Below, piece after piece: positions 3,392 to 19,128 of a DNA stretch of 64,000 nt. Source of the DNA: Rubellimicrobium aerolatum (GTDB lineage: Bacteria > Pseudomonadota > Alphaproteobacteria > Rhodobacterales > Rhodobacteraceae); NCBI RefSeq assembly GCF_017872975.1, contig NZ_JAGGJP010000002.1:310001-374000 (forward strand), read 5' to 3'. Position numbers and translations under genes: made by a program. The notes under the pieces are model-generated. The model was not told where the DNA came from, searched no databases, and saw only the letters and a program-made list of their open reading frames with translations. Positions within the stretch are counted from its first letter, which is position 1. Each line of letters opens with the position of its first letter.

Positions 3392-4500
3392 TGCTGGAGC
3401 TCGCGATCCTGTCGCTGCTGCTGGCGGGGCTCTATGCCGGGATGACCTTCGCCAACCTCCGGGCCTACCGTCCGCCGCCGGCATCGAGGGGTGGGCTCCG
3501 GCAGGTCTCGGTCCTGATCCCCGCCCGCGACGAGGAAGCGAACATCCGGCCGCTGCTGGAGACGGTGCTGGCGTCGAAGGACGTGGAGCTGGAGGTCGTC
3601 GTGCTGGACGACGACTCCTCGGACGGGACGGCCGAGGCGGTGCGGCGGTTCGCGGCGGCGGACTCGCGGGTGCGGCTGGTCAGGGGCGCGCCGCTGCCGC
3701 CGGGCTGGATCGGCAAGTCGCACGCGTGCTGTCAGCTCTCTCTCGCGGCGCGGCATTCGCTGCTGGTCTATGTGGACGCGGACGTGCGGCTGCACCCGGA
3801 GGCGCTGGCGCGGCTGGCGGCCTTTGTGGAGCAGGAGAGGCTGGGGCTGGCGAGCGGCTTCCCGCGCCAGATCACCGGGACTCTGGGCGAGAAGGTGGCG
3901 ATCCCGCAGATCTTCGTGGTGCTGCTGGGCTACCTGCCGTTGGGCCTGGCGCGGCGGCAACCGACGGACCCGCGCTTCGCCGCCGCCTGCGGCCAGGTGC
4001 TGGCGGTCACGCGGCCCGCCTATGACGCCGCCGGAGGCCACTCGGGCATCCGGCGGTCCATCCACGACGGGCTGAGCCTCGCGAGGGCGGTGCGGCGGGC
4101 GGGCTTCGCGACGGATCTCTGCGACCTGACGGGGCTGGCGAGTTGCCGGATGTATCGGACCTGGAGCGCGCTCTGGGCCGGGTTCTCCAAGAACGCGCGG
4201 GAGGGGATGGCGACGCGGACGGCGCTGCCGCTCTGGACGCTGCTGCTGGGGGGCGGGCACCTGCTGCCGCTCCTGCTCCTGCCCTGGGCGGATGGGCTGG
4301 CGTCCCGGGCCGCGCTGGCGGCGGCGGTGCTGGCCTGGGCGGCGGCGGCGGCGACGGCGCTGCGGATGCGGGCGTCGTGGGTGTCGGTGGTGCTGCACCC
4401 GGTGGGCGTGGCGGTGACTCTGGCGATCCAGTGGAGCGCCCTCCTGCGCGGGCGGCGGCGAAGCCCGGCGGTGTGGCGCGGGCGCAGCTACGACGTATGA
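3388..4500 (+). CDS. Family 2 glycosyltransferase, membrane anchored (carotenoid/hopanoid glycosyltransferase type)
   Basis: 370-residue GT2 enzyme. An N-terminal hydrophobic anchor (residues 2-20) precedes the GT-A domain with VLIPARDEEANI, the DDDSSDGT nucleotide-binding segment, a metal-binding VDADV motif and a later GG..GIRRSIHDGL block. Three or so hydrophobic segments follow at the C-terminus. Length, architecture and neighbours fit the CrtQ-like or CruC-like glycosyltransferases that add a hexose to a carotenoid carboxyl or hydroxyl group. Start and stop overlap the neighbours by four bases (ATGA at each junction), so it belongs to one polycistronic unit. The sugar donor and acceptor cannot be read from sequence. 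Confidence 0.87.
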   Translation: MMLELAILSLLLAGLYAGMTFANLRAYRPPPASRGGLRQVSVLIPARDEEANIRPLLETVLASKDVELEVVVLDDDSSDGTAEAVRRFAAADSRVRLVRGAPLPPGWIGKSHACCQLSLAARHSLLVYVDADVRLHPEALARLAAFVEQERLGLASGFPRQITGTLGEKVAIPQIFVVLLGYLPLGLARRQPTDPRFAAACGQVLAVTRPAYDAAGGHSGIRRSIHDGLSLARAVRRAGFATDLCDLTGLASCRMYRTWSALWAGFSKNAREGMATRTALPLWTLLLGGGHLLPLLLLPWADGLASRAALAAAVLAWAAAAATALRMRASWVSVVLHPVGVAVTLAIQWSALLRGRRRSPAVWRGRSYDV

Positions 4501-5594
4501 GCGGCTTTCCCTGGCACCGCGTCTTTCATCCGCTCTGCGGCGCGGACCCGGTGACGCTCCTGCGGTTGGTGGCGCGGAACGGGCCGCCCTCGGCGCGGGG
4601 CTGGCCGGCCTACGCGGTGGCGCTGGCGACCTCGGTCGTGCGGCTGCCCTTCACGGTGGCGGACCTCGCGCTTGGGGCGGCGTGGCCGGCGAGGGTCGCG
4701 CCGCCGGTGTTCATCGTGGGCTATCCGCGCAGCGGGACGACGCACCTGCACAACCTCATGGCGGCCTCGGGGGCCTTCGCCACCGCGCCGCCCGTCCTGG
4801 CGGCGATGCCGTGGGAGCCGCTGACGCTCGCCCCCGTCGCCAAGGTCTTCATCGACCCCTACCTGCCCCGCACCCGGCTGATCGACGGCGTGGCGATGGG
4901 GCCGGAGGCCCCGACCGAGGACGAGGTGGGGCTCGCGAACCTCGGGATGGGCAGCTACTTCCACGCGGTCTACTTTCCGCGCCGCTTCGCGAAGGACTAC
5001 CGCGATGGGCTGGCCGGTCCCGCCGGTCCCGAGCGGCGGCGGGCGATCCGGCGCTATGTCCGGGCGCTGGCGCGGCGGGCGAAGGGACAGCCGCTGCTGC
5101 TCAAGAACCCGGCCTACACGGCGCAGGTGGGCGTGCTGCTCGACCTCTTTCCGGGCGCGCGGATCGTCCACATTCACCGCGACCCCCGCGCGGTCTTTGC
5201 TTCCTCGCGCCGGGCGCTGCGGCGGACCATGCGGGAACTCGCCTTGCAGGACGTGCCCGAGGAGGAGATCGACGCGGCGGTGCTGGAGACCTATCCGCTG
5301 GCGATGCGGGCGCTGCGGGCGCAGACCGCCGCCCTGCCCGCCCGGCAGTTCGCCGAGGTGGGCTTCGAGGAGCTGGTCGCCGATCCGCGCGGGGTCCTGC
5401 GGCGGCTCTGGGCGCGGCTGGACCTGCCCGCGCCGCCCGACGCCCTGGCGCGGATCGACGCGCATCTGGCCGAGGTCGCGGGGTTCCGACCCGAGGGGGC
5501 GCGACTGGGGGAGGCCGAGCTGCGCCGGCTGGGCGCGGCCTGGCCGGAGGAGCTGGCGCTTTATGGCGGGCCTAGCGCAACAGGAACCGGATGA
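4497..5594 (+). CDS. PAPS-dependent sulfotransferase family protein
   Basis: 365-residue sulfotransferase. The PAPS 5'-phosphosulfate loop is YPRSGTTHLHNLM (about residues 76-88) and the 3'-phosphate motif is HIHRDPRAVFASSRRAL (about 225). These two motifs define the Sulfotransfer_3-like group common in bacteria. It is the last gene of the pigment operon, coupled by ATGA to the glycosyltransferase, and runs 23 bases into the convergent aldehyde dehydrogenase. Sulfated carotenoids are known from some alphaproteobacteria, so a carotenoid or glycolipid acceptor is a reasonable inference. No PAPS-synthesis genes are in view. Acceptor specificity is unknown. Confidence 0.88.
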   Translation: MSGFPWHRVFHPLCGADPVTLLRLVARNGPPSARGWPAYAVALATSVVRLPFTVADLALGAAWPARVAPPVFIVGYPRSGTTHLHNLMAASGAFATAPPVLAAMPWEPLTLAPVAKVFIDPYLPRTRLIDGVAMGPEAPTEDEVGLANLGMGSYFHAVYFPRRFAKDYRDGLAGPAGPERRRAIRRYVRALARRAKGQPLLLKNPAYTAQVGVLLDLFPGARIVHIHRDPRAVFASSRRALRRTMRELALQDVPEEEIDAAVLETYPLAMRALRAQTAALPARQFAEVGFEELVADPRGVLRRLWARLDLPAPPDALARIDAHLAEVAGFRPEGARLGEAELRRLGAAWPEELALYGGPSATGTG

Positions 5595-7045: not shown

Positions 7046-7072
7046 GGAACCGTCACCGCGCGGCGACGTTCC
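7046..7072. promoter_or_regulatory. Overlapping divergent EcfG-like (general stress sigma factor) promoters
   Basis: On the plus strand GGAAC at 7046-7050, a 16-base spacer and CGTT at 7067-7070 match the alphaproteobacterial EcfG consensus GGAAC-N16/17-CGTT and precede the YciE-like gene by 64 bases. The site is nearly palindromic: the minus strand reads GGAAC (7068-7072), 16 bases, GGTT (7048-7051), aimed at the aldehyde dehydrogenase. The plus-strand match is exact; use in the other direction is inferred. Confidence 0.72.
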
Positions 7073-7693: not shown

Positions 7694-8473
7694 TTACTGG
7701 GTACCTGTGCCGGGCTCGGACATCTTGCGGTGCTGCTCGGCCAGCATCCCGGCGGGGGTGATGTTGGCGATGGCCGACTGGAGCTTGTTCTTCCAGCCCG
7801 CCACCACGTCGCCGTCGCCGCGCATCATCGCATCCCAGCCGACCTTGGCGACCATGGCGGGGTCGTCCTTCTTGGCGGTGCCGACCTTGGTGTCCTCCAT
7901 GTCGGCGCGCTCGAAGAACTCGGTCTCGGTGGCGCCGGGCATCAGGTCGGTGACGGTGATCTTCGTGTCCTTCAGCTCGTTCCGCAGGGCGAAGGCGAAG
8001 GAATTGATGAAGGCCTTGGTGCCGTTGTAGACGGCCTGGAACGATCCCGGCATGAAGCCGGCGATGGAGCCGGTGATGAGGATGCGGCCCTGGTCGCGCG
8101 CCCGCATGTCCTGGCCGACCTTGTGGATCAGGTAGATCGTGCCGGTCACGTTGGTGTCCACGACGTGGCGCGCGTCCTTGAACTCCTGGTCGAGGAAGGC
8201 GTGGCCGAGCCCGTGCCCGGCGTTGGCGATCAGCACGTCCACGGGCTGGCCCCGCGCGGCGGCGTAGAGCTTGTCCACGCCGTCGGTGGTGGACAGGTCC
8301 ACCTCCACGGCCTCGACCTGCGCGCCCAAGGCGCGGAAGTCCTGGGCGGCCTGCTGGATCTCGGGCCGGTCGGCGGCGACGAGGAGGTCGTGGCCGTTCT
8401 CGGCGGCCAGCTTGGCGAGCTCGTAGCCGATGCCGGAGGAGGCGCCGGTCACGAGGGCGAGGGGACGGGGCAT
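7694..8473 (-). CDS. Short-chain dehydrogenase/reductase (SDR)
   Basis: 259-residue classical SDR. The NAD(P) motif is TGASSGIGYELAK at residues 9-21, NAGHG follows the fourth strand, the catalytic serine lies in ITGSIAG, and the active-site YNGTK fits YxxxK. The C-terminus after DLMPGATETEFF carries an unusual segment with a repeated DDPAMVAKVGWDAMMRGD-type run seen in stress-linked SDRs annotated only as oxidoreductases. AGGAG lies six bases before the ATG. It has its own exact EcfG-like promoter and sits head to head with the next small stress gene. Substrate unknown. Confidence 0.9.
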   Translation of the reverse strand: MPRPLALVTGASSGIGYELAKLAAENGHDLLVAADRPEIQQAAQDFRALGAQVEAVEVDLSTTDGVDKLYAAARGQPVDVLIANAGHGLGHAFLDQEFKDARHVVDTNVTGTIYLIHKVGQDMRARDQGRILITGSIAGFMPGSFQAVYNGTKAFINSFAFALRNELKDTKITVTDLMPGATETEFFERADMEDTKVGTAKKDDPAMVAKVGWDAMMRGDGDVVAGWKNKLQSAIANITPAGMLAEQHRKMSEPGTGTQ

Positions 8474-8517
8474 GGGGGAACTCCTGAACGGGGGCTGCCG
8501 GGGCGGCTATCCCGCCC

Positions 8518-8542
8518 AACGCCTCGGCTGGGCGGGCGTTCC
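8518..8542 (-). promoter_or_regulatory. EcfG-like promoter for the SDR gene
   Basis: Read on the minus strand: GGAAC (8538-8542), 16 bases, CGTT (8518-8521), an exact match to the EcfG consensus, with the -10 about 45 bases before the SDR start codon. It is back to back with a similar plus-strand site at 8546. Confidence 0.72.
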
Positions 8543-8545
8543 GCC

Positions 8546-8570
8546 GGAACCGGGGCGAGGCGCGCGGGTT
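8546..8570 (+). promoter_or_regulatory. EcfG-like promoter for the small conserved protein
   Basis: GGAAC (8546-8550), 16 bases, GGTT (8567-8570), 31 bases before the ATG at 8601. The first base of the -10 differs from the CGTT consensus. Three bases separate it from the divergent site serving the SDR gene. Confidence 0.55.
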
Positions 8571-8600
8571 GGCGCGTCGAAGCACGACAGGAGCCCGATC

Positions 8601-8906
8601 ATGGCCGAGACCACGACCGATCACGACACGATCCGCACATGGGCCGAGAGCAAGGGCGGCAAGCCCGCCGCCGTGGACCGGACCCACTCCGACAAGGACG
8701 TGGGGCTGATCCGCATCATGTTCCCCGACGCCCCCAACTCGCACCACGACAACCTCGTGGAGATCACCTGGGAGGAGTTCTTCGAGGAGTTCGACGCCAA
8801 GAACCTCGCGCTGCTCTTCGACGAGAAGAGCCTGTTCAACAAGCTGGTGGGGCGGGAGACGGCCGAGAAGCGGGAGGGCGGGAATCACCACGCCTCTCGC
8901 GGGTGA
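8601..8906 (+). CDS. Small conserved acidic protein of unknown function
   Basis: 101 residues, acidic and probably cytoplasmic, with no signal peptide or membrane segment. The conserved-looking core runs from TIRTWAESKGGKPAAV through MFPD and ITWEEFFEEFDAKNLALLF. I recognise this as a short family often transferred the name '1,4-alpha-glucan branching enzyme' in databases. The protein is far too short for that enzyme and shows none of its motifs, so that name should not be used. AGGAG precedes the ATG. Divergent from the SDR gene and preceded by an EcfG-like promoter, it is probably a general stress protein. Confidence 0.75.
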   Translation: MAETTTDHDTIRTWAESKGGKPAAVDRTHSDKDVGLIRIMFPDAPNSHHDNLVEITWEEFFEEFDAKNLALLFDEKSLFNKLVGRETAEKREGGNHHASRG

Positions 8907-9631: not shown

Positions 9632-9656
9632 GGAACTTGCGTCGCCCGGCCCGGTT
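9632..9656 (+). promoter_or_regulatory. EcfG-like promoter at the head of the glyco-inositol cassette
   Basis: GGAAC (9632-9636), 16 bases, GGTT (9653-9656), 47 bases before the first ATG of the cassette. The spacing is ideal; the -10 has G instead of the preferred C at its first position. A second, exact site lies inside the cassette at 13400, which supports this one. Confidence 0.58.
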
Positions 9657-9702: not shown

Positions 9703-10815
9703 ATGAAACTGGTGGTCTTCGGGCTGGCCGTGAGCTCCTCCTGGGGGAACGGGCACGCGACGCTGTGGCGCGGGCTGATCGGCGCGCTGGCGCGGCAGGG
9801 GCACCGGGTCACCTTCTTCGAGCGCGACGTGCCGTGGTACGCCGAGACGCGCGACCTGACGGCCTTGCCCGAGGGGGCGGAGCTGGTGCTCTATCCCGAC
9901 TGGGACTCCGTGACGGCGCGCGCGCAGGCCGAGGCGGCGGGGGCGGACGCGGTGATGGTCACGTCGTTCTGCCCGGACGGCCCGGCGGCCTCGCGGCTGG
10001 CCTGGGAGGCGTCGCCGGGGGTGACGGTCTTCTACGACATGGACACGCCCGTGACGCTGGCCCGGCTGGAGAGCGGCGAGGCGGTGGACTTCCTGCCGCC
10101 CGAGGGGCTGGGCAACTTCGACCTCGTGCTGAGCTACACCGGCGGCATGGCGCTGGACCTGCTGCGGAGCCGGCTGGGCGCGCGGCGGGTCGCGCCGCTT
10201 TACGGCCACGTCGATCCGAGGGTGCATCGGCCGGGGCGGCCGGATGCGGCGTTCCGGGGGGACCTGTCCTATCTGGGCACCTACGCCGCCGACCGGCAGG
10301 CGGCGCTGGAGGCGCTGTTCGTGGAGCCGGCGCGGGCGCGGCCGGAGCGGCGCTTCGTGCTGGCGGGGGCGGGCTATCCGCCGGACTTCCCATGGACGGA
10401 CAACATCTTCTTCGTGAAGCACCTGCCGCCCGCCGATCATCCGGCCTTCTTCGCCTCGTCGCGGCTGACGCTGAACGTCACGCGGGGGGCGATGGCGGCG
10501 ATGGGGTGGTGCCCGTCGGGGCGGCTCTTCGAGGCGGCGGCCTGCGGCGTGCCGGTGCTGAGCGACGTGTGGGAGGGGTTGGGGGAGTTCTTCGTGCCGG
10601 GGCAGGAGATCCTGACGGCGCGGACGACCGCCGACGCGGTGGCGGCGCTGGAGAGAGGGGACGCGGATCTGGCCCGCATCGGGCGGGCCGCGCGGGAGCG
10701 GGTGCTGGCCGAGCACAGCTCGGACGCGCGGGCGGCGGAGCTGGTGGCGCTTCTGGGCGGGTCCGCGCCGGAAGGGGCGAGGATCAGGGGGGAGAGCGTG
10801 TCATGTGGGGAATAA
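9703..10815 (+). CDS. CgeB-like glycosyltransferase
   Basis: 370-residue GT-B fold protein of the CgeB/DUF3880 type. The N-terminal half opens with MKLVVFGLAVSSSWGNGHA and contains the VFYDMDTP segment; the C-terminal half contains NVTRGAMAAMGWCPSGRLFEAAACGVPVLSD, typical of the nucleotide-sugar binding side of this group. There is no signal or membrane segment, so it is cytosolic. First gene of an eight-gene same-strand cassette, it overlaps the nucleotidyltransferase by 13 bases and has an EcfG-like promoter 47 bases upstream. An AGGGG precedes the ATG. Donor and acceptor are unknown. Confidence 0.85.
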   Translation: MKLVVFGLAVSSSWGNGHATLWRGLIGALARQGHRVTFFERDVPWYAETRDLTALPEGAELVLYPDWDSVTARAQAEAAGADAVMVTSFCPDGPAASRLAWEASPGVTVFYDMDTPVTLARLESGEAVDFLPPEGLGNFDLVLSYTGGMALDLLRSRLGARRVAPLYGHVDPRVHRPGRPDAAFRGDLSYLGTYAADRQAALEALFVEPARARPERRFVLAGAGYPPDFPWTDNIFFVKHLPPADHPAFFASSRLTLNVTRGAMAAMGWCPSGRLFEAAACGVPVLSDVWEGLGEFFVPGQEILTARTTADAVAALERGDADLARIGRAARERVLAEHSSDARAAELVALLGGSAPEGARIRGESVSCGE

Positions 10816-11546
10816 TCCCGGCGGCCGGGAACGGGACGCGCATCCAGCCGCTGGCCTTCTCCAAGGAGCTCCTGCCGGTGGGCGGGCGGCTGTCGGGCGA
10901 CGGGCGGGCGCGGCCCAAGGCGGTGAGCGAATACCTCGTGGACCGGATGGCGCTGGCGGGGGCGACGAAGGTGTGCTTCGTGATCTCGCCCAGCAAGGGC
11001 GACATCCTCAAGTACTACGGCGGGCATTGCGACGTGGCCGAGATCGCCTTCGTGGTGCAGCCGACGGCCTTGGGGCTCTGCGACGCGATCTTTCGTGCCC
11101 ATGCGGTGATCCCCCATGACGAGCCGGTGCTGGTGGGGCTGCCCGACACGATCTGGTTCCCCGAGGATGCCTTGCGCGCCCTGCCCGACGACCGGCTGTC
11201 GTTCCTGCTGTTCCCCGTGGAGACGCCCGAGGTCTTCGACGCCGTGGTGACGGACGAGGCGGGCCGCGTGCTGGCCATCGACGTGAAGTCGCCCGAGGTG
11301 CGGTCCAACTGGATCTGGGGCGCGTTCAAGATGCCAGGGCACGTGTATCACGAATTGCGCGCCTTCTGGCAGGCGCGGCCCGAGCCCGACGAATACATCG
11401 GCACGCTGGTCAACGCCTGGCTCGCGCAGGGCGGCGAGGCGGTGGGGGTGCGGGCCGGGACGCTCTATGCCGACGTGGGGACGCTGGAGGGCTATCGGAT
11501 GGCGATGGAGCTGCTGGGGCCGGGGATGGCGCAGGTCGCGCGCTAG
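10803..11546 (+). CDS. Sugar-1-phosphate nucleotidyltransferase-like protein
   Basis: 247-residue nucleotidyltransferase of the RmlA/GalU-like superfamily. The activation loop is PAAGNGTRIQPLAFSKELLPV (residues 6-26, a G-x-G-T-R...K-E-L-L-P-V pattern), and GLPDTIWF fills the place of the usual metal-binding GD. The late VGTLEGY matches the D-x-G-T motif. It is shorter than the RfbA encoded at 48252 and clearly a different subgroup. It starts inside the end of the preceding gene (13-base overlap) and probably makes the activated sugar, or an activated inositol, used by the cassette. The activated substrate cannot be told. Confidence 0.82.
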   Translation: MWGIIPAAGNGTRIQPLAFSKELLPVGGRLSGDGRARPKAVSEYLVDRMALAGATKVCFVISPSKGDILKYYGGHCDVAEIAFVVQPTALGLCDAIFRAHAVIPHDEPVLVGLPDTIWFPEDALRALPDDRLSFLLFPVETPEVFDAVVTDEAGRVLAIDVKSPEVRSNWIWGAFKMPGHVYHELRAFWQARPEPDEYIGTLVNAWLAQGGEAVGVRAGTLYADVGTLEGYRMAMELLGPGMAQVAR

Positions 11547-11549
11547 GCC

Positions 11550-12344
11550 ATGGACGGGCTGCCCGAACGGCTGGCGCGCGGGGAGCGGGTGCCCGAGCGG
11601 GTGGTGCTGGTCGTGGCGCATCCCGACGACGAGACGCTGGCGCTGGCGAGCCGGCTGCGGCTGTTCGACGACCTTTGCATCGTGCACCTGACGGACGGCG
11701 CGCCGCGCGACGGGGCCGACGCGGGGCGCGCGGGGGTGGCGGCTGTGGAGGACTATGCCCAGTTGCGCCGTCAGGAGCTGCGGGCCGCCATGGCGGCGCT
11801 GGGCTGCGGGGCCGACCTGCGCTGCTGCTGGCATCCAGACCAGGAGGCGATCCGGCATGGGGCGGCGATCCTGAAGGCGCTGGGACGCGAGCTTCGGGAC
11901 GCGGCGGCGGTCGTCACGCACGCCTACGAGCATGGGCACCCGGACCACGACGCGGCGGCGCTCTGCGTGGCGCTGGCGCTGGGGGCGCTGCGGGCCGAAG
12001 GGCGGGCGGGGCCGGTGCATTATGAATTCCCGGGGTATCATCTGCGGGACGGGCGGGCCGTGTTCGGGCGGTTCTGGGAGGACGGGGGGTGTCCGGAGAC
12101 GGTCCTGCCGCTGTCGGAGGAGGACCGGGCGCGGCGGCGGTTCGGGCTGTCGCGCTTCGCGAGCCAGGAGAAGTTTCTCTCGCAGGTGCCGGAGTGGGAG
12201 GAGCGGCTGCGGGTCGCGCCGTCCTATGACTTCCGCCGATCTGCGCCTCCGGGGGAGGCGTGGTACGGGCGGCTGGGCTGGGCAATGACGCCGGAGGTGT
12301 GGCGCGCGGAGGCGGATGCGCTGCTGGACCGCTTCGGGACATGA
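11550..12344 (+). CDS. PIG-L family (LmbE-like) N-acetylglucosamine deacetylase
   Basis: 264-residue zinc-dependent deacetylase. The first metal motif is AHPDDE (residues 23-28) and the second HPDHDAAA (about 131). Families with these motifs include MshB (GlcNAc-inositol deacetylase of mycothiol synthesis), BshB and eukaryotic PIG-L, all of which deacetylate a GlcNAc linked to a small acceptor. An extra C-terminal part after about residue 170 is unlike MshB. It follows the nucleotidyltransferase by three bases and is coupled to the GT4 by ATGA. Together with the inositol-phosphate synthase in the same cassette this suggests a glucosaminyl-inositol intermediate. Confidence 0.88.
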   Translation: MDGLPERLARGERVPERVVLVVAHPDDETLALASRLRLFDDLCIVHLTDGAPRDGADAGRAGVAAVEDYAQLRRQELRAAMAALGCGADLRCCWHPDQEAIRHGAAILKALGRELRDAAAVVTHAYEHGHPDHDAAALCVALALGALRAEGRAGPVHYEFPGYHLRDGRAVFGRFWEDGGCPETVLPLSEEDRARRRFGLSRFASQEKFLSQVPEWEERLRVAPSYDFRRSAPPGEAWYGRLGWAMTPEVWRAEADALLDRFGT

Positions 12345-13366
12345 GGCTGACGGTCCTGAGCGTGGCCTATCCGCTCGCGCCCGTGACGGCCGATCCGGTG
12401 GGGGGCGCGGAGCAGGTGCTGGCGCGGCTCGACCGGGCGCTGGTCGCGGCGGGGCACCGGTCGCTGGTGATCGCGCCGGAGGGGTCGGAGGTGGCGGGGG
12501 AGTTGTGGCCTGTCCCCCCCGTGGCGGGGCCGATCGGGGAGGCGGAGGCCGGGCGGGTGCGGGCCGCCGTGCGGGACCGGATCGCCGAGGTGGTGGCGCG
12601 CGAGAGGGTGGACGTGATCCACCTGCACGGGATCGACTTCCCGACCTACCTGCCCGAGTCGGGGCCGCCGGTGCTGGTGACGCTGCATCTGCCGCTGGAC
12701 TGGTATCCGCCCGAGGCGCTGTCGCCCTCGCGGCCCCGGACCTTCCTGCATCCGGTCTCGGCGGCGCAGGCGGCGACGGCCCCGCCGGGGGCGCGGATCG
12801 GGGCGCCCATCGCGAACGGGGTGGAGATCCCGGAGGTGCGGGTGCGGCGGCGGAGGTATGCCTTCGCCCTGGGGCGGATCTGCCCGGAGAAGGGGTTCGA
12901 CGACGCGCTGGAGGCGGCTCGGCTGGCGCGGCGGCCCCTGCTGATGGCGGGGACGGTGTTCCCCTACCCCGATCACGAGCGGCATTTCCGCGAGGCGGTG
13001 GCGCCGCGCCTGTCGTGGCGGCGGCGCTGGGTCGGGGCGGTCGCAGGGGAGCGCAAGCAGGCGTTGCTGGCGGGGGCGGCCTGCCTGCTGGTGCCGTCGA
13101 AGGCGCGGGAGACCTCGTCCCTGGTCGCGATGGAGGCCTTGGCGGCGGGGACGCCGGTGATCGCCTATCCGAGCGGGGCGCTGGCCGACATCGTGGATGA
13201 CGGGCGGACGGGGTTCCTTGTGGAGGGCGTCGAGGGGCTGGCGCGGGCGATGCGGGAGGTGGGGCGGATCGACCCGGAGACCTGCCGGGCCGTGGCGCGG
13301 GAGCGGTTCTCGGCGGAGGCGATGGTGGGGCGCTACCTCGAACGCTACGCGGAGCTGGCGGGGTGA
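12341..13366 (+). CDS. Family 4 glycosyltransferase
   Basis: 341-residue GT-B enzyme. The N-terminal acceptor domain includes DPVGGAEQVLARLDRAL and VIHLHGIDFPTYL. The C-terminal donor domain includes FALGRICPEKGFDDALEAAR, VPSKARETSSLVAMEALAAGTPVIA (the E-x7-E motif) and DIVDDGRTGFLV. The layout is that of retaining GT4 enzymes such as MshA and BshA, which link GlcNAc to inositol phosphate or malate, but many other acceptors occur. It starts in ATGA overlap with the PIG-L gene. After its stop there is a gap of about 100 bases with an internal promoter before the phosphatase gene. Confidence 0.87.
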   Translation: MRLTVLSVAYPLAPVTADPVGGAEQVLARLDRALVAAGHRSLVIAPEGSEVAGELWPVPPVAGPIGEAEAGRVRAAVRDRIAEVVARERVDVIHLHGIDFPTYLPESGPPVLVTLHLPLDWYPPEALSPSRPRTFLHPVSAAQAATAPPGARIGAPIANGVEIPEVRVRRRRYAFALGRICPEKGFDDALEAARLARRPLLMAGTVFPYPDHERHFREAVAPRLSWRRRWVGAVAGERKQALLAGAACLLVPSKARETSSLVAMEALAAGTPVIAYPSGALADIVDDGRTGFLVEGVEGLARAMREVGRIDPETCRAVARERFSAEAMVGRYLERYAELAG

Positions 13367-13399
13367 GCGGCGCGATCCCGCCAAAGCGCGGCGGGCCTT

Positions 13400-13424
13400 G
13401 GAACCTCACGGGCGCGCGAGCGTT
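13400..13424 (+). promoter_or_regulatory. Exact EcfG-like promoter inside the cassette
   Basis: GGAAC (13400-13404), 16 bases, CGTT (13421-13424) match the EcfG consensus exactly. Expected transcription would begin near 13431, about 35 bases before the start of the phosphatase reading frame, so the downstream four genes could be expressed separately under stress. Confidence 0.72.
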
Positions 13425-13465
13425 TGTAGCCGAAGGAATGTAGAAGCCGCCTCGGGGGTAGTCCG

Positions 13466-14065
13466 ATCAACGTCCAGCTTTATCTGATCCGCCATGCGGC
13501 GCACGCGGATTTCGGGCGCAGGCTCACCGGCCGGGCACCGGGCGTTCCCCTGACGCCCGAGGGCGAGCGGCAGGCGGAGGCGTTGGGGCGGAGGCTCGCG
13601 CCCGAGGGGCTGGACGCGATCCAGACCAGCCCGCGCGAGCGCGCCCGCGCCACAGCCGAGGCCGTCGCGCGCCACAGCGGCGCTCCGGTTACGGTGGTCG
13701 AGGCGCTGGACGAGGTGGATTTCGGTGACTGGACGGGGACGGCGTTCGCGGACCTGGACGGCCCGGCCTGGGACGACTGGAACGCCCGCCGCGCGACCGC
13801 CCGCGTTCCCGGTGGCGAGAGCATGGGCGAGGCCGCCGACCGCATCGCCCGGCACGTCGATGGACTGGCGGCGCGCGGGGGCCAGCGGATCGCGCTGGTG
13901 AGCCATTGCGACATGATCCGCGCGCTTGTGGCCCGCGTGCTGGGGCTTTCGCTCGACAACCTGCTGCGGTTCGAGATCGGGCCGGCCTCGGTCAGCCGGC
14001 TGGAGGCCGGGCCCTGGGGCGCGCGGGTGCTTTCCCTCAACGAAACCTTTGGGACGACGGCATGA
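13466..14065 (+). CDS. Histidine phosphatase family protein, non-canonical start
   Basis: Phosphatase of the phosphoglycerate mutase-like (RHG) superfamily. The catalytic motif LIRHA lies at about residues 7-11 of the frame and the second histidine in LVSHCDMIRALVA. The frame is open from 13430, just after a TAG, yet contains no ATG, GTG or TTG before the TTG at 13583, which lies downstream of the catalytic RHA motif. I therefore place the start at the ATC at 13466 (199 residues, usual family length), with GGGGG eight bases upstream. A base error or a rare AUC start are the options. The stop overlaps the methyltransferase start. In this setting it could dephosphorylate a glycosyl-inositol phosphate. 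Confidence 0.72.
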   Translation: MNVQLYLIRHAAHADFGRRLTGRAPGVPLTPEGERQAEALGRRLAPEGLDAIQTSPRERARATAEAVARHSGAPVTVVEALDEVDFGDWTGTAFADLDGPAWDDWNARRATARVPGGESMGEAADRIARHVDGLAARGGQRIALVSHCDMIRALVARVLGLSLDNLLRFEIGPASVSRLEAGPWGARVLSLNETFGTTA

Positions 14066-14841
14066 AGGACGTATCCGATCCGGGCGAGGACGACCTCGCG
14101 CGCCGCATCGAGGCCCTGGGGCCCTGGTTCCACAACCTGCGGCTCGGGGGCATCGAGACGGCGCCGGGGCACTTCCTGGGCGACTTTCCCCGGACCAAGT
14201 TCGAGCGCTTCGACCATGCGGTGCCCGCCGACCTGTCGGGGAAGTCGGTGCTGGATATCGGCTGCAACGCCGGGTTCTACAGCCTGGAGATGAAGCGGCG
14301 CGGGGCGGCGCGGGTGCTCGGGATCGACCACGACGAGCATTACCTTCGGCAGGCGCGGCTGGCCGCCGAGGTCGAGGGAATGGACATCGAGTTCCGGCGA
14401 CTGGAGGTCTACGACGTGGGGGCCTTGGGCGAGAGCTTCGACGTCGTGATCTTCATGGGGGTGCTGTATCACCTGCGGCACCCGCTGCTCGCGCTGGACC
14501 TGATCCGCGAGCACGTCGCGGGCGACCTCCTGATCTTCCAGTCGCTGCTGCGGGGGACGGAGGAGGTGCTGGAGGTGCCGGAGGAGATGCCGTTCTCGGA
14601 GGAGGCGGTGTTCGAGAGGGTGGGCTATCCGGCGCTCTACTTCATCGAGAAGTCGTATTCCGAGGACTGGACCAACTGGTGGGCCCCGAACCGCGCCGGC
14701 GTCGAGGCGATGCTGCGGGCGGCGGGGTTCGCCATCGAGACCCGCGCGAGCGAGGACGTCTATATCTGCCGCCGCGCGGAGGTGCCCTATTCGCAATGGG
14801 GCGCGGGCGCGGCCTATCCGGCCAGGGGAGCCGCGCGATGA
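14062..14841 (+). CDS. SAM-dependent methyltransferase (CmoB/DUF1698-like)
   Basis: 259-residue class I methyltransferase. SAM motif I is VLDIGCNAGFYSLEM, the acidic loop GIDHDEHYLRQAR follows, and FMGVLYHLRHPLLALD is the post-core motif typical of the CmoB-like group. The N-terminal part resembles CmoB in having WFHNLRLGGIETAPGHFLGDFP. I believe it belongs to a methyltransferase family that travels with this kind of cassette in proteobacteria (often labelled TIGR04290, from memory). ATGA overlaps occur at both ends. The likely role is methylation of the cassette product; the acceptor is unknown. Confidence 0.85.
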   Translation: MKDVSDPGEDDLARRIEALGPWFHNLRLGGIETAPGHFLGDFPRTKFERFDHAVPADLSGKSVLDIGCNAGFYSLEMKRRGAARVLGIDHDEHYLRQARLAAEVEGMDIEFRRLEVYDVGALGESFDVVIFMGVLYHLRHPLLALDLIREHVAGDLLIFQSLLRGTEEVLEVPEEMPFSEEAVFERVGYPALYFIEKSYSEDWTNWWAPNRAGVEAMLRAAGFAIETRASEDVYICRRAEVPYSQWGAGAAYPARGAAR

Positions 14842-15761
14842 TCGATTCCGTGATGTTCTGGAACGAGCCCAACAACAAGTCGCACTGGGACCCGGAGATC
14901 GACCCGGACTGGTCGCAGTTCTCGCGCATGGTGAACCTCGCCGGGCGGGCGGTGGCCGACGTGAATCCGGGGATGACGCGGGTGCTGGGGGGGATCTCGC
15001 CCATCGATCCCAACTACATCCTGCGGCTGAAGGAACAGGGGGTGCTGGACCACGTGGACGTGCTGGCGGTGCATGGCTTCCCGCTCGACTGGAACCTGTG
15101 GCAGATCGGGGAATGGCCCGCCAAGGTCGCGGAGATCGAGGCGGTGGCCCCCGGTCATCCGGTCTGGGTGAGCGAGGTGGGCGTCGGGTCCTTCGGGGCC
15201 GAGGAGGTGCAGGAGTTCGGCGTCCGGCGAACGGCCGAGCTGCTGGTCGGACGGGTGCCGCGCGTCTACTGGTATTCGCTGTTCGACCTGCCGCGTCAGT
15301 GGGAGGCCACGACGCGGCACCGGGAGGCCGAGGGGTCGAGCTACTACCGGCATTTCTACATGGGCCTGATCCGCGAGGACGGCACGCCCAAGCCGGGGCT
15401 GGCGGCCTACGCGCCCCATGCGGACCGGATGGGGCTCATGCAGTGGTTCCATTTCGAGGACCCGCGCCTGCCGCTGGCGGTGGACTGGCTGAAGCGGCTG
15501 GGGGTGCGGCACCTGCGGACGGGGCTGAGCTGGGCGGACAGCTTCCGGCCGAACGCGCTGGACTGGTTCGACCGGCAGATGGAGGCGTTGCAGGATTTCG
15601 ACGTGATGGTGACCTTCTGCTTCACGCCCGAGCACCTGGGCGTGCAGCCGCACCACACGAGCCCGCCGCGCGAGCCGCAGCAGTTCGCCGACTTCTGCGC
15701 CGCCATGGTCGAACGCTACGCGCCCGCGATGCCCGCGCGCGCCACCGCAGGGAGGGGATGA
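14838..15761 (+). CDS. Circularly permuted TIM-barrel glycoside-hydrolase-like protein
   Basis: 307 residues with the parts of a clan A glycosidase in changed order. The acid/base motif WNEPN is at residues 8-12 (Glu10), normally found after strand 4. The candidate nucleophile Glu113 is in VWVSEVGVGS, the usual strand 7 position. The segment about 203-295 (HFEDPRLPLAVDWLKRLGVR, LRTGLSWADS, VTFCFTPEHLG, PPREPQQFADF) looks like strands 1-3 that normally precede WNEPN. The protein thus seems to begin at strand 4 and end at helix 3. There is no signal peptide, so it is cytosolic, and coupled by ATGA on both sides. Hydrolytic or transglycosylating activity on the cassette product is inferred. Confidence 0.8.
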   Translation: MIDSVMFWNEPNNKSHWDPEIDPDWSQFSRMVNLAGRAVADVNPGMTRVLGGISPIDPNYILRLKEQGVLDHVDVLAVHGFPLDWNLWQIGEWPAKVAEIEAVAPGHPVWVSEVGVGSFGAEEVQEFGVRRTAELLVGRVPRVYWYSLFDLPRQWEATTRHREAEGSSYYRHFYMGLIREDGTPKPGLAAYAPHADRMGLMQWFHFEDPRLPLAVDWLKRLGVRHLRTGLSWADSFRPNALDWFDRQMEALQDFDVMVTFCFTPEHLGVQPHHTSPPREPQQFADFCAAMVERYAPAMPARATAGRG

Positions 15762-16876
15762 TGCCCGACGGACACCTGGCCCCGAAGGGGATCAACGTCG
15801 CCATCGTCGGCGTGGGCAACTGCGCGAGTTCGCTCGTGCAGGGGATCGCGCTGTATCGCGACCACGACCGGAACGAGCATACGGGGCTGATGCACTGGGA
15901 CCTGGGCGGCTACCGGCCCGGCGACATCCGGGTGGTGGCGGCCTGGGACATCGACCGGCGCAAGGTCGGGCAGGACGTGGGCCGCGCGATCTTCGAGAAG
16001 CCGAACTGCACGCTCACCTTCTGCGCGGACGTGCCCGAGACGGGGGCGAAGGTGCGGATGGGGAAGGTGCTGGACGGCTTCGCGCCGCACATGGCGGACC
16101 AGCCGGAGAACCGGACGTTCCTGAAGGCCGACCTGCCGGAGCCCGACCGCGACGAGGTGGTGCGGGTGCTGCGCGAGACGGGGACGCACGTCCTGATGAA
16201 CTACCTGCCGGTGGGGAGCCAGAAGGCGACGGAGTTCTACGCGGAATGCGCGCTGGAGGCGGGCGTCGCCTTCGTCAACAACATCCCCGTGTTCATCGCG
16301 AGCGACGAGGCTTGGGCGCGGCGGTTCCGCGAGGCGGGCGTGCCGATCATCGGGGACGACATCAAGGCGCAGGTGGGCGCGACCATCGTCCACCGGGTGC
16401 TGACCGACCTCTTCGCCAAGCGGGGGGTGCGGCTGGACCGGACGTATCAGCTCAACACCGGGGGGAACACCGATTTCCTGAATATGTGGGCGCGGGACCG
16501 GGTGGCGTCGAAGAAGATCTCGAAGACCGAGGCGGTGCAGGCGGTGGCGGGCGAGCGGCTCGACTGGGAGAACATCCATGTCGGGCCGTCGGACTACGTG
16601 CCGTGGCAGAACGACAACAAGGTGGCGTTCATCCGGCTGGAAGGGACGATGTTCGGCGGCGTGCCGATGCACATGGAGCTGCGGCTGTCGGTCGAGGACA
16701 GCCCCAACAGCGCGGGCGTCGCCATCGACCTGATCCGCTGCGCCAAGGTGGCGCGCGACCGGGGGCTCTCGGGGCCCATCGAGGCGCCGGCGGCGTTCTT
16801 CTGCAAGCATCCGCCCCGGCAGCTGCGGGACGACGTGGCCTATCAGGCGGTCGAGGACTTCATCCGCGAAGGGTGA
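15758..16876 (+). CDS. ino1: Inositol-3-phosphate synthase (actinobacterial/archaeal type)
   Basis: 372-residue NAD-dependent isomerase converting glucose-6-phosphate to 1D-myo-inositol-3-phosphate. It carries the short-type signatures: VAIVGVGNCASSLVQGI near the start, NYLPVGSQKATEFYAECALEAG, PIIGDDIKAQVGATI, QLNTGGNTDFLNM, ERLDWENIHVGPSDYVPW and EDSPNSAGVAIDLIRCAK. These are the blocks I recall from the mycobacterial enzyme, and the length agrees. Start is the first of two consecutive ATGs, in ATGA overlap. As last gene of the cassette it supplies the inositol phosphate that presumably gives the product its core. Confidence 0.94.
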   Translation: MMPDGHLAPKGINVAIVGVGNCASSLVQGIALYRDHDRNEHTGLMHWDLGGYRPGDIRVVAAWDIDRRKVGQDVGRAIFEKPNCTLTFCADVPETGAKVRMGKVLDGFAPHMADQPENRTFLKADLPEPDRDEVVRVLRETGTHVLMNYLPVGSQKATEFYAECALEAGVAFVNNIPVFIASDEAWARRFREAGVPIIGDDIKAQVGATIVHRVLTDLFAKRGVRLDRTYQLNTGGNTDFLNMWARDRVASKKISKTEAVQAVAGERLDWENIHVGPSDYVPWQNDNKVAFIRLEGTMFGGVPMHMELRLSVEDSPNSAGVAIDLIRCAKVARDRGLSGPIEAPAAFFCKHPPRQLRDDVAYQAVEDFIREG

Positions 16877-16923: not shown

Positions 16924-19128
16924 TCAGGCCGCCAGCTCGGCGGCGGCGTAGGTGGTGACGAAGCCCGCGTCGTCCGTGTCCGTCGCGTCCGCGAGGGAGC
17001 TGCCGTCGTCGTCCAGCGAGGCCGCGGCGAGGGCGTAGTCGCTGTCGTCCTCCATGGCCGAGGTCACGGTGACGGAGGCGGTGGTCGCCTTGAGCACCTT
17101 GGTCGCCGGCTTGGCCGCGAACTCCACCTCCTGCGAGAGCTCGAAGGCCGAGAGGTCGCCGTTGAAGTTCGTCCGGCTGAAGGGGTTGCCGAAGACGAGG
17201 TCATGCGTCCCGAAGCCCTTGCTGCCGCCGATGACGCCGGTCATCGCCGTCTCGCCGGCCAAGCCCCCGTCCACCCAGATCTGCAGCTTGCCGCTGTCGA
17301 GCTGGACGACCACGTCATGGGGCTGGTTGGCGACCGCGTTGAGCCCGGCGCCCTTGGTCGTCAGCCAGACCGGCGTCGTGCCGTCCCGGAACACCTGGAA
17401 CGTCAGCTCTCCCGACGAGGTGACGGAGGCCATGAAGCTGCCATGGAGGCGGACGACCTCGCCCGAGGCGCCGGCCTTGTCGGCGTCGAGAGTCATGGCC
17501 AACGTCATCTTGTCGCTGCCGATGATGTCGAGCAGGTGGCTGCGGTCCACAGTCGCAGCGACGCCGGTCGCGCCGAGCTGGAGCCCGTCGGCGCTCATCT
17601 TGGCCAGGGCGCCGAGGCCGGTGGCGACGCCGCCGTCGTAGACGGTGAGTTGGCCGTCGTCGAGGGTCACGACCTCGGAGGACTCGATGGCGCAGGCGGC
17701 GGTCTCGGTCGCCTTCTCGCCGGTGGGCAGCTTGACGGACAGGGTGACGTCGAACTCGCCAGCCTTGGCGTAGCTGTGCTGGACCGTCACGCCGGTCGCC
17801 TTGGTGCCGTCCCCGAAGGTCCAGACGAAGGTGCTCCCGGCGGGCAGAGCGGCGCCCTTGAAGGTGGACTGGCTCGCGTCGAAGACGCGCGTCGTCGCGT
17901 TCACGTCGTCCATGTCGAAGGTCACGAGCAGGCCGTCGGTGATGCCCTGGGTGAGCTTGGAGCCCGCGTTGGCCAGGTCGATCGCGCCGCCCTTGACGGC
18001 CACGTAGTCGTTCACGCCGTCGGCGCCGTCCAGGGACGAGCCGGTGAACACATCGTCGTAGAAGTTCGGATCGAACTTGTACTGGTCCTGGACGAGCACG
18101 TTGTTGCCGACCGTCCAGCCCGCCTTGGCGGTCGGGACCACGGCGGCGACGTTCTGCGTGACCACGACGCCGGTCGAGCGGGCCGAAACGGCGATCTTGG
18201 GGATCTCGACGCCGCTGTCGGCGGCGTCGGGCCGGTCGCCATCGGCGTGCAGCACCGAGTTGTTGCGGATGGTGAGGCCCGCCGTCTCGCCGACCATGAT
18301 GCCGTGGACATGGCCGTTGGTGATCGTGTTGTTCTCGATCAGGACGTTCTGGTAAAACATCTCCGTCCCGGCGCGGCCGAGATCGACCTCCTCGTTCCGC
18401 ATGAAGATGGATTGGGTGAAGGACCCTTCTCCGATGTCGAGCACGTTGTCGCGGATGACGATGTCCGTCGAGGGCTGGGTCGTGCCCATCGTCCAGAACT
18501 GGATCATGTCGCGGTGGTCGCCCGAGGCGTAGGACGCCCGGAAGTCGTGGATGTAGTTTCCCTCGATCAGGACATCCTGGACGTCGGCGAAGTTCATCCC
18601 GTCCATGCGGATGTCGTGGATATCGTTGTCACGGATCACGAGGCCCTGGTTATCTGAGAAGACCATCCCACGAAAGAAGCTCGACACCTCACAATTCTCG
18701 ATCAGCACGTCGCTGCTGTTCCGCACCGACAGGCCGACCGCAGTCGCATAGCCATTGTCGTTCGCCGTGAGGCCGGATGCCAAGTCGCCGTCGAAGGTCG
18801 AATTGCGGATCGTCAGATCCGTGCAGCTCGTGAATTGGAAGGGACGGGTCTGAAGGGTGTCGCCGGCCTTGAATTCGTAATCGAAGTTGATCCCGTCGAG
18901 GACCAGGTGGCTCGCCTTGCCGATCTGCACCGACGAGAAGGTGGCCGGATTCGCGGGATCGGCCGATTTGATCGTCACGTCGGACGGGAATTTGAAATTG
19001 AACTTCGTCTGCACGTTCAATGCCAGATTGCCGTAATCGCCACCCGCCAGGAGGATCGTTTCACCCCCCTTGCAGCTCGCCAGGGCGGTATAGAGTTGCG
19101 CCAGATTGGAAGCAGTCAGATTCGCCAT
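16924..19128 (-). CDS. Beta-helix/PKD/LamG protein, probable type I secretion cargo
   Basis: 734 residues without a signal peptide. Residues about 20-350 form a right-handed parallel beta-helix with NVLIENNTI/DVLIEGNYI-type rungs. They contain a conserved patch, RMDGMNFA (174-181), GDHRDMIQFW (203-212) and SIFMRN (240-245). A PKD-like domain follows (about 400-475, with FVWTFGDGT and HSYAKAGEFDVTLSV), then a LamG/concanavalin-like domain (about 485-670). The tail is acidic and alanine-rich and ends in AAAELAA. There are no RTX repeats. It lies downstream of, and on the same strand as, the type I ABC/HlyD pair, and the missing signal peptide plus tail suit export by it. GAGGG precedes the ATG. 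The polysaccharide it may bind or cleave is unknown. Confidence 0.85.
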   Translation of the reverse strand: MANLTASNLAQLYTALASCKGGETILLAGGDYGNLALNVQTKFNFKFPSDVTIKSADPANPATFSSVQIGKASHLVLDGINFDYEFKAGDTLQTRPFQFTSCTDLTIRNSTFDGDLASGLTANDNGYATAVGLSVRNSSDVLIENCEVSSFFRGMVFSDNQGLVIRDNDIHDIRMDGMNFADVQDVLIEGNYIHDFRASYASGDHRDMIQFWTMGTTQPSTDIVIRDNVLDIGEGSFTQSIFMRNEEVDLGRAGTEMFYQNVLIENNTITNGHVHGIMVGETAGLTIRNNSVLHADGDRPDAADSGVEIPKIAVSARSTGVVVTQNVAAVVPTAKAGWTVGNNVLVQDQYKFDPNFYDDVFTGSSLDGADGVNDYVAVKGGAIDLANAGSKLTQGITDGLLVTFDMDDVNATTRVFDASQSTFKGAALPAGSTFVWTFGDGTKATGVTVQHSYAKAGEFDVTLSVKLPTGEKATETAACAIESSEVVTLDDGQLTVYDGGVATGLGALAKMSADGLQLGATGVAATVDRSHLLDIIGSDKMTLAMTLDADKAGASGEVVRLHGSFMASVTSSGELTFQVFRDGTTPVWLTTKGAGLNAVANQPHDVVVQLDSGKLQIWVDGGLAGETAMTGVIGGSKGFGTHDLVFGNPFSRTNFNGDLSAFELSQEVEFAAKPATKVLKATTASVTVTSAMEDDSDYALAAASLDDDGSSLADATDTDDAGFVTTYAAAELAA

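Follow-up and report, generated by a model that had tools for sequence, protein, structure and literature searches.

What does the run of eight genes at positions 9703-16876 of the window make, and under which conditions? The window is the whole 64,000-nucleotide stretch of Rubellimicrobium aerolatum DNA analysed here, taken from a genome that is 95.6% complete, and all positions are counted along it. A preliminary description had read these genes as a glyco-inositol cassette with the enzyme logic of mycothiol synthesis. All eight same-strand genes are present (+ strand). Our analysis suggests that this 'operon' is in fact two units, each placed behind a conserved GGAAC-N16-NGTT site, the predicted promoter of the general stress sigma factor EcfG. 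The cassette is a member of a large family of glycan cassettes found in Alphaproteobacteria, with some in Acidobacteria, and marked by a TIGR04290 methyltransferase. Its glycosidase appears to be a circularly permuted barrel, and its product is probably an inositol-containing, methylated sugar compound made by a stress-switched assembly line. The features are as follows.

9632..9656, + strand: predicted EcfG-type promoter of unit 1 (GGAAC-N16-GGTT; -10 box mismatched at one base)
9703..10815, + strand: CgeB-type glycosyltransferase (PF13524, 3.4e-40)
10803..11546, + strand: sugar-1-phosphate nucleotidyltransferase, RmlA/GlmU-like (PF00483, 3.6e-8; RmlA structures, 4.4e-8)
11550..12344, + strand: PIG-L family de-N-acetylase (PF02585, 3.1e-17)
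12341..13366, + strand: GT4 glycosyltransferase, GT4_w (PF13692/PF00534/PF13439)
13400..13424, + strand: predicted EcfG promoter of unit 2, GGAAC-N16-CGTT, a perfect match just upstream of the phosphatase
about 13466..14065, + strand: histidine phosphatase, branch 1 (PF00300, 2.8e-48), with a probable ATC start
14062..14841, + strand: S-adenosylmethionine methyltransferase of family TIGR04290, the marker gene (364.8 bits, above the cut-off of 300)
14838..15761, + strand: circularly permuted, putative clan GH-A-like glycosidase (PslG match; pLDDT 88), probable acid/base E10 and nucleophile E113
15758..16876, + strand: inositol-3-phosphate synthase, Ino1 (PF01658, 1.2e-35; structure 1gr0, 1.7e-116)

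The genes had been described as lying in nearly continuous start-stop overlap, which is true of most junctions. ATGA overlaps join PIG-L to GT4, phosphatase to methyltransferase, methyltransferase to glycosidase and glycosidase to Ino1; the CgeB and nucleotidyltransferase genes overlap by 13 nt, and 3 nt separate the nucleotidyltransferase gene from PIG-L. The description does not hold between GT4 and the phosphatase, where a gap of about 99 nt contains the perfect promoter match. Because of this gap and its promoter, the cassette seems to be transcribed as two units and not as an unbroken series: unit 1 (9703-13366) comprises the CgeB-type enzyme, the nucleotidyltransferase, PIG-L and GT4, and unit 2 (13466-16876) comprises the phosphatase, methyltransferase, glycosidase and Ino1 genes, coupled via their ATGA overlaps. 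The phosphatase frame has no suitably placed ATG, GTG or TTG, and its start codon is likely the ATC at 13466-13468; this rare codon is equally placed in 6/6 Rubellimicrobium genomes (the window and loci L135-L139).

The motif GGAAC-N16/17-CGTT has been published as the promoter of EcfG (PMC7083833), and the sequence at 13400-13424 matches it at a gene start. This unit 2 site is perfect and equally placed in the same six genomes. The unit 1 site lies at -71 to -73 upstream of the CgeB gene in all five Rubellimicrobium genomes that have unit 1 (the window and L135-L138), with a perfect CGTT in L136 and a mismatch in the first -10 base in the other four, window included. The genome encodes NepR, adjoined by a gene for a sigma factor of the extracytoplasmic function type. 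The exact motif occurs three times in the window against 0.27 expected, a count reached in 1 of 100 shuffles; one copy serves the cassette, a second perfect copy (8542-8518, - strand) precedes a short-chain dehydrogenase gene (7697-8473) by about 45 nt, and the third lies away from called gene starts. Over 96 loci (the window and the 95 others compared below), there are 49 occurrences of the motif with 16-nt spacing, of which 30, in 30 loci, stand -30 to 300 nt before a cassette gene. With any other spacing from 8 to 25 nt the number of such sites was between 0 and 4 (3 with 17 nt), and 40 motif pairs with scrambled letters gave 5 at most (mean 1.3). Two thirds of the 96 loci have no exact match; they may use looser -10 boxes or may not be under such control. 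The motif was found in none of the five acidobacterial loci, as expected since an EcfG-type sigma factor has been called exclusive to Alphaproteobacteria (PMC3892343). The promoters thus predict that the cassette is controlled by the general stress response, which lends support to the earlier proposal that the product is made under stress.

The preliminary description had made its reading depend on the eight genes being conserved together in other genomes, and such conservation is seen. Of 95 other loci, six (L047, L048, L061, L096, L111 and L124) contain all eight families; they come from four genera, Rubellimicrobium, Chthonobacter, Bradyrhizobium and Mesorhizobium, and three more loci (L088, L098 and L121) contain seven of the eight. 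The arrangement is not due to chance, given this conservation across genera. Within the genus sample (8 genomes, including that of the window), the methyltransferase is over its cut-off in six genomes, and both misses are less than 90% complete; four of the five methyltransferase-bearing relatives have the eight genes in the same order, and in the fifth, L139, only unit 2 with its promoter was found. In L137 the nucleotidyltransferase and PIG-L genes are each split over two frames, and the stretch between GT4 and the phosphatase is longer by about 2 kb. L047 and L135, and likewise L048 and L138, were taken as the same two genomes. The closest named methyltransferases among the matches listed are those of R. 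arenae (88%) and R. roseum (86%). In the class sample (190 genomes), the methyltransferase is over its cut-off in ten; at least 578 genome stretches encode a relative of it (tblastn, E 1e-3), not each of them certainly a TIGR04290 member, and matches occur in 133 plasmid records at E 1e-30.

Four modules can be recognized in these loci. Module A is Ino1-phosphatase-methyltransferase-glycosidase (all four in 57/95 loci), module B is CgeB-nucleotidyltransferase plus PIG-L-GT4_w, sometimes with an Acetyltransf_6 gene, module C consists of two short-chain dehydrogenases/reductases (SDRs), a TIGR04295 radical SAM enzyme, a GT4, up to three CgeB-type glycosyltransferases and a decarboxylase, and module D of a zinc dehydrogenase, an inositol-dehydrogenase-like oxidoreductase, a pyruvyl transferase and an FrhB-like gene. 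Modules A and B together make up the window cassette. Methyltransferase and glycosidase genes are adjacent 78 times, phosphatase and Ino1 occur together in 60 loci, CgeB directly precedes the nucleotidyltransferase in 23 adjacencies (23 loci hold a nucleotidyltransferase), and PIG-L is accompanied by GT4_w in 10/10 loci where the PIG-L profile matches. Ino1 is present in 64/95 loci and PIG-L in 10/95, the PIG-L counts being minima (the PIG-L of L036 was seen by BLAST and missed by the family profile). These counts lean to close kin, the 80 named loci being the best matches to the window methyltransferase; in L103 no methyltransferase was called at the open reading frame step. The nine class-wide loci (L032-L040) form a less biased set, in which Ino1 is found in 2/9, the permuted glycosidase in 2/9 by profile, and first-block glycosidase matches in five more. 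The TIGR04295 radical SAM enzyme and the zinc dehydrogenase occur together in 1/95 loci only (p 5.5e-7), as if they were alternative routes, a pattern that lineage may confound. In L046, from the model symbiont Sinorhizobium meliloti 1021 (pSymB 232472-253167), there is a C-type methyltransferase cassette; the 20.7 kb covered contain neither Ino1 nor a permuted glycosidase. A paper found for the genes SMb20229-SMb20234 describes SMb20231 as an ABC sugar-binding protein, which does not help to explain the cassette. The window shares with the TIGR04290/TIGR04295 glycan loci the member methyltransferase, the CgeB-type glycosyltransferases and the larger locus family, but its genome lacks the TIGR04295 radical SAM enzyme (best match genome-wide, 22 bits), and its cassette has PIG-L and GT4_w and not the adjoining epimerase and decarboxylase module. 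Literature searches on the family names (TIGR04290, TIGR04295, B12_rSAM_oligo) and on Ino1, glycosyltransferase, EcfG and regulon combined found no paper on the cassette family or on such a combination.

The glycosidase is the most unusual member of the cassette. As encoded it has no Pfam or NCBIfam match, and residues 4-153 of its profile, its first half, match PslG 133-301 (E 3.2e-6). When the last third is moved to the front, a single stretch of PslG is matched (residues 6-255 against 25-301, E 6.7e-11), and the alignment has 8 rows where it had 32. Its structure model is confident (pLDDT 88.3, pTM 0.88), and the presumed catalytic glutamates are invariant, E10 in 78/78 and E113 in 80/80 aligned members. 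In the model of the permuted chain, E10 directly follows the first strand and E113 closes the fourth; these two strands correspond to barrel strands 4 and 7, where the GH39/PslG enzymes of clan GH-A carry their catalytic pair. Of the 80 members, 78 cover both blocks, and in all of these the strand order is permuted. Three relatives of about 700 amino acids (L033 16040-18325, L035 2790-4898 and L039 16103-18226) have the two glycosidase blocks in canonical order, followed by an SDR_b-type NAD-dependent epimerase domain; SDR_a had been our first expectation for the fusion partner. The rotated window protein aligns to these forms in one piece (30-32%), the unrotated one in two. At E 1e-20 the glycosidase is found in 8/190 class genomes, three times at whole length and five times as the first block only; three of the latter are the fused canonical forms, and the other two (L037 and L038) are genes cut by the ends of the stretches. 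All eight genomes fall within the ten that bear the methyltransferase (hypergeometric p 1.2e-12, ignoring relatedness). We conclude that the glycosidase is a circularly permuted PslG-like barrel, the permutation being read from sequence, and the effect of rotation and the canonical-order relatives bear out the preliminary description on this point. Compared with PslG and other members of the GH39 superfamily, the enzyme shares the NEP acid/base and W-x-x-E nucleophile stretches and, once rotated, aligns with PslG in one piece, but its chain begins at the strand-4 equivalent and ends after strand 3, it has no hydrophobic window, and it is kept within biosynthetic cassettes. A natural permuted glycosidase is known in MalS, of GH13 subfamily 19, described (PMC10223318) as permuted in whole domains and belonging to another clan, whereas here the cut lies inside the barrel.

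PslG may act as a quality-control or chain-trimming enzyme for Psl. An alternative, rather unlikely in our view, is that the cassette supplies a precursor of a surface polymer (exopolysaccharide, lipopolysaccharide or capsule), with export machinery encoded elsewhere and the glycosidase in a quality-control or trimming role. In its favour, PslG is nearest to the permuted glycosidase. Many relatives with several CgeB-type glycosyltransferases, a UDP-glucuronate decarboxylase and epimerases, and some with a pyruvyl transferase, would suit such a function. The flippase, polymerase or exporter of a Wzx/Wzy or ABC-type locus is what the cassettes lack: no gene with at least four hydrophobic windows was called in any of 95 cassette spans (the window and 94 loci), by our own gene caller, which misses some genes, and 0/80 glycosidase proteins have a hydrophobic window. 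Ino1 and PIG-L would moreover be unusual in surface-polymer loci. The absence of called multi-hydrophobic genes from the spans suggests that the product is probably intracellular.

Ino1 is the genome's single match of its kind (genome-wide, E 0.001). It was described as actinobacterial in type, and it does match M. tuberculosis Ino1 (1gr0) with 392 bits (1.7e-116) over about 360 residues, although its score with TIGR03450, the model for the Ino1 of mycothiol synthesis, is 444 bits where the cut-off is 638. The catalytic lysine of Ino1, in the GDDIK stretch, is common to this protein and 1gr0 and is missing from the cyclopentitol enzyme 6k96, which makes a cyclopentitol in place of inositol less likely. 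The parallel with the mycothiol pathway (Ino1/MshA/MshA2/MshB/MshC/MshD) extends to an Ino1 homologue, a GT4, a phosphatase and a PIG-L enzyme; the analogy is valid for enzyme classes only. The GT4 cannot be equated with MshA as had been proposed, since it scores 40.2 bits against a cut-off of 462.5 (TIGR03449), and its nearest entries in the PDB are a 'Glycosyl transferase' (7fg9/8x3q) and tetrahydrobiopterin glucosyltransferases. The assignment of PIG-L to the MshB step is likewise not supported: the protein has the PF02585 match and the AHPDDE and HPDH stretches of its sequence, but among NCBIfam models its one match at E 0.01 or better is to BshB2 (37.9 bits, cut-off 195), with none to MshB, and no PDB match was found. 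Genome-wide, no MshC is over its cut-off (one match, 287 against 485 bits, by a model that also hits every one of the 14 control genomes, where cysteinyl-tRNA synthetase is the expected match) and no MshD either (best of two matches, 30 against 163 bits), in agreement with the preliminary description. Mycothiol proper is rejected on these scores and on the lack of MshC and MshD over cut-off. A mycothiol-like molecule, in which glucosaminyl-inositol made via GT4, phosphatase and PIG-L would then be acylated to serve as a redox or detoxification cofactor, has a low probability. The four enzyme classes, the co-occurrence of PIG-L with GT4_w and the presence of an Acetyltransf_6 gene in 7/10 PIG-L loci speak for it, as would two PF13480 genes elsewhere in the window genome if they are kin of that gene; the family score and nearest structures of the GT4, the lack of MshC and MshD over cut-off, and the excess of Ino1 loci (64) over PIG-L loci (10) speak against it. 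In addition, the cassette contains a CgeB-type glycosyltransferase, a nucleotidyltransferase, a methyltransferase and a glycosidase beyond the mycothiol set, and the methyltransferase, CgeB-type enzyme and glycosidase have no place in that pathway.

The second glycosyltransferase was correctly described as of CgeB type by its PF13524 match, the label CgeB following the preliminary description; a search against the sequences of solved structures found no relative at E 0.01. By analogy with Bacillus CgeB, the cassette might glycosylate a protein, in a spore-coat-like manner, with a small neighbouring protein as acceptor. CgeB-type enzymes are the commonest glycosyltransferases of these loci and a small conserved family, F118 (window open reading frame 8430-8903), lies nearby in several of them, but F118 has no Pfam match or known role and Ino1 and PIG-L would be left unexplained, and we give this possibility a very low probability. 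A phage origin of the CgeB-type enzyme or of the glycosidase was rejected, as neither has a PHROGs match at E 0.001. Outside the cassette, a sulfotransferase is encoded upstream (4497-5591) and a beta-helix/PKD-domain protein downstream (16927-19128, - strand).

The reading that we favour, at a little short of an even chance, is that of a two-unit, EcfG-controlled cassette whose product, a methylated glycosyl-inositol oligosaccharide, would be soluble or held at the periphery and would protect the cell under stress. The PhyR-NepR-EcfG general stress response would switch on both units, unit 2 providing cyclitol synthesis and decoration and unit 1 the amino-sugar arm. Ino1 would convert glucose-6-phosphate to inositol-3-phosphate, and the histidine phosphatase would dephosphorylate either inositol phosphate, giving free inositol, or a glycosyl-inositol phosphate. 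The nucleotidyltransferase would activate a sugar-1-phosphate, the GT4 and CgeB-type enzymes would transfer sugars to form a short glycan, and PIG-L would remove an N-acetyl group and expose an amine. The TIGR04290 enzyme would cap a hydroxyl by O-methylation, and the permuted GH-A enzyme would trim or transfer a beta-linked sugar. The end product would be a soluble, O-methylated, amino-sugar-bearing inositol glycoside. Substrates, product, role and the order of steps, that of the glucosaminyl-inositol steps included, are here inferred from enzyme classes, while gene content, conservation, stress-type promoters, the permutation and the lack of a multi-spanning gene inside the cassettes are read directly from the sequences. 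The name 'B12_rSAM_oligo', given by NCBI to the companion radical SAM family, also counts in favour of this reading, as does the placing of the genome's one Ino1 inside the cassette, in a class where 18/190 genomes have an Ino1 at E 1e-10.

Several results weigh against this reading or help it little. Inositol is frequent in these cassettes and is neither universal nor obligatory for the methyltransferase family: the link of Ino1 with the methyltransferase across the class is weak (3/10 methyltransferase-bearing genomes versus 15/180 others, Fisher p 0.056), and L034 alone among the nine class-wide loci has the whole Ino1-phosphatase-methyltransferase-glycosidase core. No cassette enzyme has an assayed close relative that would fix its sugar, and the nucleotidyltransferase fits no specific family, being under the cut-off of each NCBIfam family listed. 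Some genes escape our caller where the GC content of a locus is lower, and export genes may be located outside the spans, which tempers the argument for an intracellular product. The motif copy at 7046-7070 is not at the start of any called gene. As to the permutation, the matches of the last third of the glycosidase to the first parts of beta-glucosidase barrels are weak on their own (E 0.07 at best), and rotation improves the Pfam match (PF11790) slightly and never over the cut-off (from none to 0.0077 for the window protein, from 0.14 to 0.031 for L098, from 0.033 to 0.014 for L108). Foldseek with the permuted model returned assorted barrels only (best E 2.4e-4, TM about 0.4), a result that may be expected of an order-dependent aligner facing a permuted barrel and that is not in itself evidence of permutation.

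Stress-controlled carbohydrate synthesis has a precedent in the trehalose synthesis genes of an alphaproteobacterial stress regulon (PMC6599016), from which the cassette differs in its enzymes and predicted product; the same paper has EcfG-dependent glycosyltransferases in Sphingomonas melonis, for which no connection with the cassette could be made. A broader proposal, which we regard as doubtful, is that methylated glycosyl-inositol oligosaccharides form an undescribed class of stress metabolites across Alphaproteobacteria under EcfG, the permuted glycosidase working in their synthesis, as a transglycosidase, and not in breakdown, while its unpermuted kin carry a fused sugar-nucleotide epimerase. 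With relatives of unpermuted, epimerase-fused form in sister cassettes, this glycosidase offers a clean natural example of circular permutation with the cut inside a catalytic barrel. Alphaproteobacteria rely centrally on the general stress response to survive in the environment. The cassette is widespread, and many lineages have promoters of the stress type before it; should it make a stress glycoside, this protectant would be new and clearly accessible through its genes.

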